Of a DNA stretch of 64,000 nucleotides, positions 42,381-52,177 are shown in pieces. Position numbers and translations under genes: made by a program. Source of the stretch: Lampris incognitus. Taxonomy: Eukaryota > Chordata > Actinopteri > Lampriformes > Lampridae. Under the pieces are notes generated by a model, which saw nothing but the letters and a program-made list of their open reading frames with translations, did not search any database and had not been told where the DNA came from. The stretch spans positions 20,037,967 through 20,101,966 of the forward strand of contig NC_079224.1 of the NCBI RefSeq assembly GCF_029633865.1. The letters are read 5' to 3'. Numbering within the stretch: the stretch's first letter is position 1; each line of letters begins with the position of its first letter.

Positions 42381-45300
42381 TCACGATGCTGCTGCCCAGA
42401 GTATCGACACCCCACTTCCTGCCTGATGGCTGATTTGGTTGACCCGTCCACGTACGCAGTCCAACGTAAAGAACACTACTGTGCCATTACGCACCTGAAA
42501 GGATGCTCGCAGTCCCATGCTGGCCCACTGGCTGCCTTCTGGCATCTGGCCACCCACCTGCTGGGCCAGGGGGACAGGTCTACCGCCCTCAGCAACCCTC
42601 TCCCCTTCTCGTAACCCTTCTGTTTTACTTTGCCTGAGAAGAGTCACCTTTAGCAGGTTGCAGGAGTGGATGAGTTTCAGGTCCAGAGCCAAACTGGCGG
42701 TCCCACTCTCCTTGAAGACAAAGTCCCGTCTTTGGTCTGTGGATCCCTTCCCTGGGAGTGCCACCTGGGACACCTGGGGGCTTGTCTGGCGAAAGAACAA
42801 TGGCTTGTTGCGGACGGCTCCGGCAGGCAGACCGGTAGGAGCCAAGGATGCGGTGAGGGAGGACGAGATGGCGGCCGGAACCCATACCAAGCTGAGGGTA
42901 CTGATTCCAGTCTCATCACCAAAGTAGCGGACGTTGCACTGAGCTGGGGTGAGGATCTCAAAACCCAGTGTGTCCCCAGGGTCAACCTTAGCCGCTCCAG
43001 ACAAAGAGATAGACGTGTCTCGGTAGTGGACACCGGGCTTGAAGGTGCGGGACAGTTCCACGCCTGTCCCATTGCGGCTGAGGTACGCCAACAGGTGGAA
43101 GCCCTCGTTCACGCAGGCCTGGCCCATGGAGTACACAGCCTGCTGAAATACGAAGCGCACTGTTCCGCTCTCCGCAAAACGCACCCCACGTCCATCGTGA
43201 GTCAGGCCCACCACGTAGGGGTCAGAGGTCGAGGTAGTGCGGAATACTGGCCGGTAGTTGGTGTGGTAGTGTGCAGACGCCACTGCCTGTGCTGTCATGG
43301 CAACCGCTCCCGTATCATGGGACAGCCAGAGGAGGCTGAGCGTAGCCGCCGAGGGGTCATACAGCTCTAGCCCCTCATGACTGTGATTACAGTGGTGGCT
43401 GGCACTTCTGAGGAGTAGGGAGATCATGTGACCTGGAGCGACCTCTGCCACTCCGCTAATGCTCACGCTCTGGAGCGACTTCCCCTCCCTCTGCTCAACT
43501 CTGACACCGCTGAGGTCACGAGCTTCAGAGCTGTCGGTGTTATTCAAACGCAAACACACTTGGATGAAGCTGCGACAGCCGTGAGCCAGGGAGAGGTTTT
43601 CATCCAGCCACACCAGGCCATGTTGCCGGAGCACCAGGCGACCATCCTCAGCCGACACAAGACCCCCATCCCTTCTCCCTTGGATTCGAAGTTGGATACT
43701 GGGGGTCGCGTGACCTGGCAAAAAGCCTCTCGCTGTGGGCAAACTCACATCTCCAGCCCAGGACAGAGAGAGGGCGCTGTCTCTAGCAGTAGGGATGGAG
43801 CAGATGGTGTCGGTGGTGTAGGCACAGGGTGCGGCCACGGGGTCTTCATCACATTCAGAGCAGGCCTGACACTCGTCCATCTCTGCATTATAGAAGTAGG
43901 CGTGGCCACACATTCCTGAGTTGGCATCACGCTCTGTCATTCCCTGGCATCTGAATCCACCTGATAACAACAAACCAGGTGGAAAAGGAGGAGGGTAGGT
44001 TGGATTCAATACAATCTTCTTTACTTACAGATAATGTTGGGTAGATACATCTTTAAATATAAATAATAGTTATTTATCAAGAGGAAAAGGGTGGAAAGTA
44101 AGCAAACTCTAAGGGAAACAATCACAATTTTCATCATTATCTCTATACTCCTTTAGCAGCCATAATACTGAGCAGTCTTCTGTATTTCTGAAATACCGCC
44201 AAAATTGTGCTTACCTGTGACATCACTTCACAATCTGTGAAGATGAAAACTTGCTTTCTGGTTTACCAATATACTGCATATCATCATTATTTGCATTTTG
44301 GCATATTCTTATGCAAATAGAAATGCTACATAGCATTGTGGAGCCTATCGGCAAACCAGGACATCCACAGATTGTCTGCCAGTGACAACATGGTGGCGTT
44401 TCAGAGACACACAGAAGACTGCTCAGTACTATGGCTGCTAAAGGAGTGATATCACTAGTATATATATATATATATATATGTGTGTGTGTGTGTGTGTGTG
44501 TGTGTGTGTGTGGGAGAGAGAGAGAGAGAGAGAGAGAGAGAGAGAGAGAGAGAGAGAGAGAGAGAGAGAGAAAGAGATTATGTTACAACAACAATCGTGA
44601 TTGTTTCCCTTTAAAGAGCAACTAAACCCCATACCATGATGCTTGCTCATCAGCTGTTGTCAGTGAGTAAACATTGAAAGCAACCAATTGTTTTGTCATT
44701 GCTGGCACAGAAATATATCTAAATCAAATGGACCCATCATTATTCTCATTAGCTGCAGCTTTATTTATCCTGCTATGTTTACATAGCTGGTTTCTCAGTT
44801 TTAGATACCATGGTAGCAAATTCACCAAAGTGGTATAGGCTTTAGTTGTTCTTTGAGCTTATCTGACAGAAAAAGTAGAAGAAAAATTTGGGAGCCATTG
44901 CAGATTACTTTCTTGATAAATTCTCTTTACCTGGAGTGTTGAGACATTTCTGATGATCACCACACAGATGTGTTATTTCTAGGCATTCATCTCTGTCCTG
45001 TAACAGTAATTTCACAAATGAAGAATTGTTTCATGTTTATACATAATTACTGGCATTCTGAGTGAGCAGTCGGCTGAACATTTATAGAAAGTCATTAATT
45101 TTCACCTCAGGCATATATGAGATTCAACGCATATTGTCCTATGCAATTGTTATAATACTTGCATTTTTTCGTTCATTTCCCATCATCTGTATCTTTGCAC
45201 TGATTGATTTCTAACTCCGTTATAAACATATTTCAGTGCACTCACATGGGACTTTCTGGCTCCCCATAAGTAGGTGTAGCACTAATACACACCTGGCAGA

Positions 45301-51300: not shown

Positions 51301-52177
51301 ACAAAGGCCATTTGTGGCAATACTGTGGATCAACAAAGTCGCTATTTTTCGCATTTTCACAATAGAATAAAGGTTTCGCAAATCTGAAACTGTCTTAAAG
51401 AGTCTCTGGCTTGTCTGGGACATTCTAGTCCAGATTTGACAAGTTCACGTTTTTTGGTTTTGATCAGGACCTGGTCCAGTATGGTCTAGATGTGATATAA
51501 AAAAAGAAGCACTGAAGCGGGGTTCAGACCGCATTAAGGCCCCAGTGCAAAAAAAGAAAAGAAAACGAGGCTCGGTCGCTAAGCGCTGTAAATTAAGTTT
51601 CCCTTAACGTTCCCCTTAACTGCCGAATCGGAAGCTGCGAATCGGAAGCTAACTTCAGCGTCGTGCAGCAAACTCTTGCCCACTGTGAGTGCACGAACAT
51701 ACATCTTGAATAGCACATAAAGTGATCCCCATTATTTGGGATGCGGGAGCAAAGGGCGAAATAATGCCGTGCAGTACAAAGTCAAATGGGACTGGCCAGC
51801 CTACCTGCACAGTCTGGATGAAACACCTCCGCCGTCAGCGTCCTCGGGTTGGACCTCCTGGTGCCATCCGTCTGCGTAATGCCTCCTCGCTGCGGGTGGA
51901 TTATCGTGTAGGGCACCAGCGGCGCGCTTTGGGCTTGTTGATTTGTGAGAGCATCCTGCTGGTAGCTTTGTGTTTGTCTGGTATGCGCCACGGGATGCGC
52001 ATGCCGCCGGGAACCTGTGGCGTCCCTGCGCCCCGGGCAGTGCTCCCCGACGCAGGGTCCTCTGTTCCAGTCCTGCGCGGAGGAACAGTGCGGCCCCCTG
52101 CAGATCTCCGCCACACCCTCTGTTTTACTGAGCCACGACGTGGCATATATGAGAAACATCGCAGAGATAAGTGCCAT
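42381..52177 (-). CDS. Secreted multidomain protein: coiled coil, TNFR-type modules, three C1q/TNF-like repeats (939 aa)
   Basis: Seven exons on the minus strand, 5' to 3': 51805-52177, 49505-49774, 49120-49325, 47061-47231, 45293-45445, 44931-44997, 42381-43960. All borders are GT/AG, phases agree, and the total is exactly 940 codons with stop. Residues 1-20 ([20 protein letters not shown]) look like a signal peptide. Residues 125-214 hold scattered cysteine pairs. Residues about 220-340 are Gln/Leu/Glu-rich coiled coil. Residues 341-391 and about 431-470 are TNF-receptor-type cysteine-rich modules (ECQACSEC...PC...DTIC). A degenerate calcium-binding EGF module (DRDEC...CLNTPGGFRC) lies between them. 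Residues about 517-627, 669-775 and 825-937 are three similar jelly-roll-like units ending LSLLWL, LSLVWV and VSILWA, each with a cysteine pair about 60 residues apart. Several N-glycosylation sites occur. I expect an oligomeric extracellular protein. I cannot name its family, and the function is unknown. Confidence 0.8.
44148..44446. mobile_element. MITE with about 45-base terminal inverted repeats
   Basis: Ends CTCCTTTAGCAGCCATAATA (44148) and the matching inverted sequence ending at 44446 pair over roughly 45 bases with few mismatches, enclosing a 299-base non-coding element. It lies in the last intron of the 939-residue gene. No target duplication is clear, so the superfamily is open. Confidence 0.75.
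44459..44571. repeat. Compound (TA)n(TG)n(GA)n microsatellite
   Basis: Three dinucleotide runs follow one another without spacers, beginning 13 bases after the MITE end. Confidence 0.95.
45481..46033 (+). mobile_element. Tc1-like transposon, deleted
   Basis: Perfect 22-base inverted ends (first 16: GTGACAAATGAAAGGA) lie at 45481-45502 and 46012-46033. The interior encodes Tc1-like transposase pieces in shifting frames: the region around [13 protein letters not shown], then [11 protein letters not shown] near 45797-45830. The N-terminal DNA-binding half is missing. It lies in an intron of the minus-strand gene. Confidence 0.8.
46458..46890 (-). mobile_element. tRNA-derived SINE, family A, copy 5 (minus)
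   Basis: Reverse-complement copy of the family at 3901, with its tail at about 46458 and its head near 46890. It is in an intron of the 939-residue gene. No clear target duplication. Confidence 0.8.
47471..47599. repeat. 21-base minisatellite, about six units
   Basis: Degenerate tandem units of the form TCAAAYGAGATAYTAAGTYRT. Because 21 is divisible by three, a plus-strand frame reads as a seven-residue repeat (SNEILSC-like), but it lies in an intron of the opposite-strand gene and shows no other coding sign. Confidence 0.85.
47911..47987. repeat. (CA)n microsatellite
   Basis: About 77 bases of CA repeat in an intron of the minus-strand gene. Confidence 0.95.
48440..48530 (+). mobile_element. 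LINE 3' tail followed by (TAG)n
   Basis: Contains 'gatgatccgctgtggcgact' and GGGAGCAGCCGAAAG, the tail type also seen at 2169, and then nine TAG units. The coding part is absent. Confidence 0.6.
48614..48731 (-). mobile_element. SINE family B, 3' fragment (minus)
   Basis: Reverse complement of the 3' third of the family at 6312 (GTCCAGGGTGTCTCCC... to the (ATGG)n tail). The head is missing. Confidence 0.8.
49949..51652. mobile_element. Non-autonomous element with about 350-base inverted arms
   Basis: The left arm starts at 49949 (TTAGCTTCTGAGTCGCAGCT) and runs to about 50300. The right arm, about 51340-51652, is its inverted counterpart. Matches include GATTCGGCA, TAATTTACAG, GGTCCTGATCAAAA, CAAATCTGGACTAG and CAGTTTCAGATTTG. 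The 1-kb centre has no recognised coding sequence. It fills much of intron 1 of the 939-residue gene. The superfamily is unknown. Confidence 0.65.
50323..50359. repeat. (TA)n microsatellite
   Basis: TA repeat just inside the left arm of the long inverted-repeat element. Confidence 0.9.

Follow-up and report, generated by a model that had tools for sequence, protein, structure and literature searches.

A seven-exon gene on the minus strand

The 64,000-nucleotide stretch of Lampris incognitus DNA considered here (assembly GCF_029633865.1, contig NC_079224.1, positions 20,037,967 to 20,101,966; hereafter the window, in whose numbering all positions are given) carries a gene of seven minus-strand exons spanning 52177 to 42381. 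The product combines tumor necrosis factor receptor (TNFR)-type cysteine-rich modules with three C-terminal units of the TNF/C1q type, and a notable feature of its family, as predicted from structure models, is a single-chain trimer. The exon lengths in the 5' to 3' direction are 373, 270, 206, 171, 153, 67, and 1580 nt; all introns have GT-AG borders, and the exons join in phase to 2820 nt, corresponding to 940 codons with a single terminal stop. An earlier note on this DNA had proposed seven in-phase exons and 940 codons, and the exon joining, the intron borders, and a gap-free alignment at the junctions with the Lates protein bear this out. The Lates protein is identical to the window protein at 748 of 939 residues and aligns without gaps in the stretches around all six junctions; the eel protein is identical at 513 of 939 residues, with junction-region gaps confined to the first junction. 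A protein search with residues 215-939 as query gave 334 matches at E <= 0.001, and 99 of the best 120 of these, which form the list used below, cover the whole query region. The gene is considered real because full-length relatives align across the exon junctions, and chance open frames are ruled out by the same 99 of 120 listed relatives; judged from sequence, the exon reading far exceeds what chance would give and is probably exact to the nucleotide. The exons and the modules of exon 7 are as follows.

51805..52177, minus strand: exon 1, with the start codon, a hydrophobic leader, and CxGxxC at residues 26-31 and 42-47 (exon joining)
49505..49774, minus strand: exon 2, N-terminal region predicted to be disordered, with CxGxxC at residues 123-128 (across the junction), 145-150, and 163-168 (disorder from the low-confidence model of orthologue P0001)
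49120..49325, minus strand: exon 3, start and bulk of the coiled coil, residues 215-283 (predicted helix, heptads)
47061..47231, minus strand: exon 4, end of the coiled coil and linker, residues 284-340, phase 0-0 (exon joining, orthologue model)
45293..45445, minus strand: exon 5, first TNFR-type cysteine-rich module, residues 351-390, phase 0-0 (PF00020)
44931..44997, minus strand: exon 6, first half of a calcium-binding-type EGF module, residues 392-413 (PF07645 at 392-444, under the cut-off)
42381..43960, minus strand: exon 7, remainder of the EGF module, second TNFR-type module, three TNF/C1q-type units, and stop (exon joining, structure model)
43800..43910, minus strand: second TNFR-type cysteine-rich module, residues 431-467 (PF00020, conserved cysteines)
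43311..43781, minus strand: TNF/C1q-type unit 1, residues ~474-630 (structure model and comparison, profiles)
42855..43295, minus strand: TNF/C1q-type unit 2, residues ~636-782 (structure model and comparison, profiles)
42384..42854, minus strand: TNF/C1q-type unit 3, residues ~783-939 (structure model and structural comparison)

Domains of the encoded protein

The presence of three jelly-roll units of the TNF/C1q type in the C-terminal head is supported by structure prediction and structural comparison (Foldseek, VIA-align), in which they match TNF ligands and C1q domains; the nearest single-domain matches of unit 2 are CD40L, APRIL, and EDA. The model of the whole head is confident (predicted template modeling score, pTM, 0.82) and gives long matches to single-chain trimers, the predicted arrangement of the three units being a single pseudo-trimer within the chain. 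Each unit contains a pair of cysteines in corresponding places (542/604, 696/755, and 847/915) that is invariant or nearly so, being kept in 31 or 32 of 32 rows, whereas 549, a seventh cysteine, is retained in 9 of the 32. Units 1 and 2 are clearly linked by profile comparison (probability 94%). Identity between fish and tetrapods is 43-74% per unit (12 row pairs each) and is highest for unit 2.

Ahead of the head, Pfam identifies TNFR_c6 (PF00020) in two stretches of the window protein (E 2.3e-11, above the cut-off; best stretch 351-390) and EGF_CA (PF07645) at residues 392-444 (E 5.7e-5, 23.7 bits, below the cut-off of 27). The second TNFR module is also matched by PF00020 at residues 17-53 of relative P0121 (E 2.1e-4, 22.1 bits, which in a stand-alone scan falls below the cut-off), and its cysteines are kept in 31/31 or 31/32 of the alignment rows with a letter there. 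Pfam matched TNFR_c6 in 31 of 32 relatives and EGF_CA in 30. When these relatives were scanned individually with full tables, 26 had two TNFR stretches; of the other six, P0121 consists of exon 7 alone, four are bird isoforms in which a single stretch was found, and one is a snake prediction that has no stretch. The collagen, laminin-G/thrombospondin-N, and VWC models had no match in any of the 32 or in the window protein, and a repeated scan of the alignment at E <= 4 gave no TNF, C1q, collagen, laminin-G, or VWC. Comparison of the family profile with PDB sequences returned EGF modules, together with weak matches to the TNF receptors TNFRSF21 (E 0.003) and TNFRSF10B (E 0.57). Members of the TNF receptor superfamily typically have a membrane span and an intracellular death or TRAF-binding part, which decoy receptors lack; neither feature was seen in the window protein by hydropathy or Pfam. 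It should be noted that certain bird and turtle database isoforms (P0162, P0167, P0178, P0179, and P0199) lack the first TNFR module in frame; these rows, which are gene predictions from a length-limited search, suggest that the head can work without that module.

The N-terminal region is probably disordered, because its confidence is very low in the orthologue model. C-x4-C motifs, most of them CxGxxC, repeat in this region: there are five in the window protein (residues 26-168, window 49644-52102, minus strand) and at least three in each of the 21 fish rows of the tree set. None is present in 8 of the 17 tetrapod rows, for which the database proteins start late, and in several bird rows one counted motif sits inside the leader. 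It is possible that the N-terminal CxGxxC motifs form inter-chain disulfides. A helix predicted at residues 239-309 of the Lates orthologue supports the coiled coil, whose heptads are of hydrophobic/glutamine character with a shift of register near residue 254, and an oligomer formed through this coil is plausible. A short hydrophobic stretch begins at residue 1, with no cytoplasmic tail ahead of it, and looks like a signal peptide; no clear membrane span was seen in the window protein, in which no 19-residue hydropathy window has a mean above 1.6, and the protein is probably secreted.

These results sustain the inventory in the earlier note, which had listed two TNFR-type modules, an EGF-like module, three jelly-roll-like units (here without a Pfam sequence match), a coiled coil, and a signal peptide, the last being likely from the short hydrophobic start. 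The mix of receptor-type and ligand-type folds in one chain, to which that note drew attention, is upheld by the domain content.

Family, distribution, and genomic surroundings

The best full-length match among those listed is the Lates protein, with 84% identity. Many of the listed matches are named "uncharacterized protein si:ch211-252f13.5," a teleost gene, and a second group among them, with ~58-60% identity, is named "nell3" (NELL family member 3) or si:ch211-37e10.2 and represents a paralogue. In trees, the window protein falls among the si:ch211-252f13.5 proteins, and it has full-length homology and the same domain order in common with the complete si:ch211-252f13.5 and nell3 rows. The earlier note had been unable to attach a family name, but the protein search identifies the gene as si:ch211-252f13.5, with nell3 as its paralogue. 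The two fish groups look like the outcome of a teleost duplication, the timing of which is left unplaced by the tree, where eel and bonytongue sequences lie closer to the tetrapods. The organisms named among the best 120 of the 334 matches are, we presume, all teleosts, some rows carrying no name. One relative, P0040 from Oryzias melastigma, bears the database label Fibrillin-1, an apparent misnaming that perhaps came about via the EGF module. NCBIfam gave no match for relatives P0001 and P0104.

In a second search, the query was the last 501 residues of the eel protein, at its C terminus. Among the best 120 of its 194 matches, a length-limited list, 18 tetrapods are named, which we take to be 10 birds, two turtles, one crocodilian, one lizard, two snakes, one frog, and the platypus; no shark, therian, or invertebrate name occurs in this list. 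Seventeen of the 18 tetrapods were placed in the tree, all on one side of one branch. The earlier note had proposed a protein search of vertebrates, and the lists of best matches now give a spread over teleosts, birds, turtles, a crocodilian, squamates, a frog, and the platypus. A short stand-alone homologue of the head was sought with a 211-residue query among candidates of ~116-369 residues and is rejected: the five proteins found are all close matches, with 57-77% identity, and are most likely fragments. The gene belongs to a conserved and catalogued family of bony vertebrates that is apparently unstudied, no study of si:ch211-252f13.5 or nell3 having been found in the open-access literature (subscription papers were outside the scope of this and the other literature searches).

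Elsewhere in the window, annexin-type repeats (PF00191) on the plus strand at 23675-24007 and 27652-28053 (Pfam, window 23675-28053) indicate that one neighbor is an annexin gene. Positions 1-561 of the plus strand contain part or a fragment of a class C seven-transmembrane receptor gene (PF00003, E 1.5e-10). Retroelement pieces (RNase H, reverse transcriptase, and a weak integrase zinc-finger below the cut-off) and a hAT transposase-type piece are located at 38915-39214 and 60635-61093 on the plus strand and at 18463-18864 and 19797-20393 on the minus strand. Rfam gave nothing at the gathering threshold within the window.

Proposed architecture, alternatives, and known systems

The reading that we favor, and regard as reasonably probable, is that of a secreted ligand or adhesion protein, multimerized by its coil, in which a TNF/C1q head occurs naturally as a single chain. 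The three C-terminal units, encoded in one exon, would fold back on one another as a built-in trimer, so that one chain would suffice for a whole head, the three lobes and grooves of which would differ from one another. The fixed lobe order would replace the mixing of chains on which C1q and heterotrimeric TNF ligands depend. A disulfide-rich stalk or, possibly, a second binding site would be formed by the EGF and TNFR-type modules, and the long glutamine-rich coiled coil, probably together with the N-terminal CxGxxC cysteines, would join several chains into a multivalent bouquet. The most likely role would be that of a TNF/C1q-type ligand for a receptor, matrix, or glycan target. Compared with this proposal, the interpretation in the earlier note had the parts but missed both the assembly into a single-chain pseudo-trimer and the membership in a catalogued family. 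A more extended version, which is tentative and inclines to the doubtful, is that bony vertebrates have a secreted ligand that possesses an asymmetric head of three different, covalently joined lobes, is clustered by coil and cysteines, and may have been lost in therians, its own receptor modules perhaps binding its ligand modules. Such binding, within or between molecules, might result in self-inhibition or homotypic adhesion, and therian loss would explain why the family went unstudied.

Several observations weigh against the favored reading. Unit 3 is linked weakly to the others by profile comparison (probability 5.8% to unit 1 and 7.8% to unit 2), and none of the 32 relatives gave a Pfam match to TNF or C1q at E <= 10, in a search whose HMMER filters discard most weak matches. 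In the Foldseek list, the five top chains are followed by a mixture of single TNF domains and large, unrelated beta proteins (glucosyltransferase, reelin) at query template modeling scores of 0.11-0.19. Sequence searches of the PDB found no solved-structure relative of the head, whose structure is wholly predicted and was judged from scores and comparisons. The full-length orthologue model is poor outside exon 7 (predicted local distance difference test, pLDDT, 64.7; pTM 0.54), with residues 16-242 below 50.

Innate pattern recognition of microbial sugars is an unlikely role, to which bivalve proteins that carry three C1q domains in tandem nevertheless lend some substance: HcC1qDC5/6 and CfC1qDC-2 have the nearest natural layout found in print, and binding of lipopolysaccharide and peptidoglycan is reported (PMC5519582, PMC10672478). 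It is rather unlikely that the units trimerize between chains, three chains lying side by side to give three stacked heads, with the model only reflecting the trimer preference of TNF and C1q. Association between chains is the usual habit of these domains, and a single-chain prediction offers a unit only the other units of its own chain for pairing; however, the confident whole-head model has long matches to single-chain trimers, and the units are strongly diverged from one another, yet each is conserved from fish to platypus, as is expected of three fixed, different positions.

The decoy-like role suggested in the earlier note, in which the two TNFR modules would capture a TNF-family ligand and the head would be a mere scaffold, is quite improbable. 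The two TNFR_c6 stretches, their retention in most relatives, and the weak profile matches to TNFRSF21 and TNFRSF10B are in keeping with it, but nothing beyond the presence of the modules speaks for it: the head is the larger part and is well conserved, the modules are split by the EGF module rather than stacked, and the first is missing from the bird and turtle isoforms described above. A typical type II TNF ligand, TNFSF ligands being type II membrane proteins, seems unlikely, as no clear membrane span was seen. Finally, action like NELL1 and NELL2 as a third NELL member, which the automatic name nell3 implies, is hardly credible. Apart from the names, the coil followed by an EGF module would fit, and NELL2 is the best single-sequence PDB match, its similarity being confined to the EGF module (E 0.0059, residues 387-419); but a single EGF match, the lack of laminin-G/thrombospondin-N and VWC domains in 32/32 relatives, and a TNF/C1q head that has no known counterpart in NELL1/2 are opposed to it, and NELL membership is rejected on this domain content.

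If the single-chain head is real, a natural example retained among vertebrates from teleosts to the platypus would reveal why lobe order and stoichiometry become fixed in evolution and would be a natural scaffold ready for use. It would also describe a protein family that databases have left uncharacterized or filed under NELL and, if therian absence holds, a signaling or matrix component invisible to standard mammal models.

The TNF or C1q head is classically a trimer of non-covalently associated chains, and single-chain versions are known chiefly from drug design. In comparison with the C1q/CTRP family, the window family has a coiled coil instead of a collagen stalk and no Pfam C1q match. 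CTRP4 (C1QTNF4) has two C1q domains and is not known to have TNFR modules; it resembles the window protein in being a secreted vertebrate protein with tandem domains, here of the C1q type. NELL1 and NELL2 have a laminin-G/thrombospondin-like N-terminal domain and VWC domains and are not known to have a TNF/C1q head; the coil and EGF module are common to them and the window family, which lacks laminin-G and VWC. In the open-access literature, judged partly from search listings, no report of a natural vertebrate protein with three tandem units and no paper on a comparable domain mix were found. Three units in tandem do have precedents in nature, since the bivalve HcC1qDC5/6 and CfC1qDC-2 have three C1q domains in one natural chain (PMC5519582, PMC10672478), sharing with the window protein three C1q-type jelly-roll domains per chain. 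HcC1qDC6 differs in that its description there is limited to a signal peptide and three sequence-identified C1q domains, and the word trimer is absent from that source (PMC5519582). The closest likeness in assembly is to engineered single-chain trimers, which have three TNF/C1q units per chain as one head, as is predicted for the window protein. The structural matches include APRIL-BAFF-BAFF (4zch), the C1q head (5hkj and 5hzf), adiponectin (4dou), and a Cbln1 construct (5kca), the single-chain status of the last being deduced from the presence of all 391 aligned residues in one chain. In TNC-scTNF, a trimerization domain precedes single-chain TNF (PMC3215731), an arrangement similar to the putative multimerizing part ahead of the head in the window protein, and the linkers of C1q-scGR are given as three residues (PMC4774423). 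The engineered trimers are man-made with short linkers, whereas the window protein occurs naturally and includes TNFR and EGF modules.

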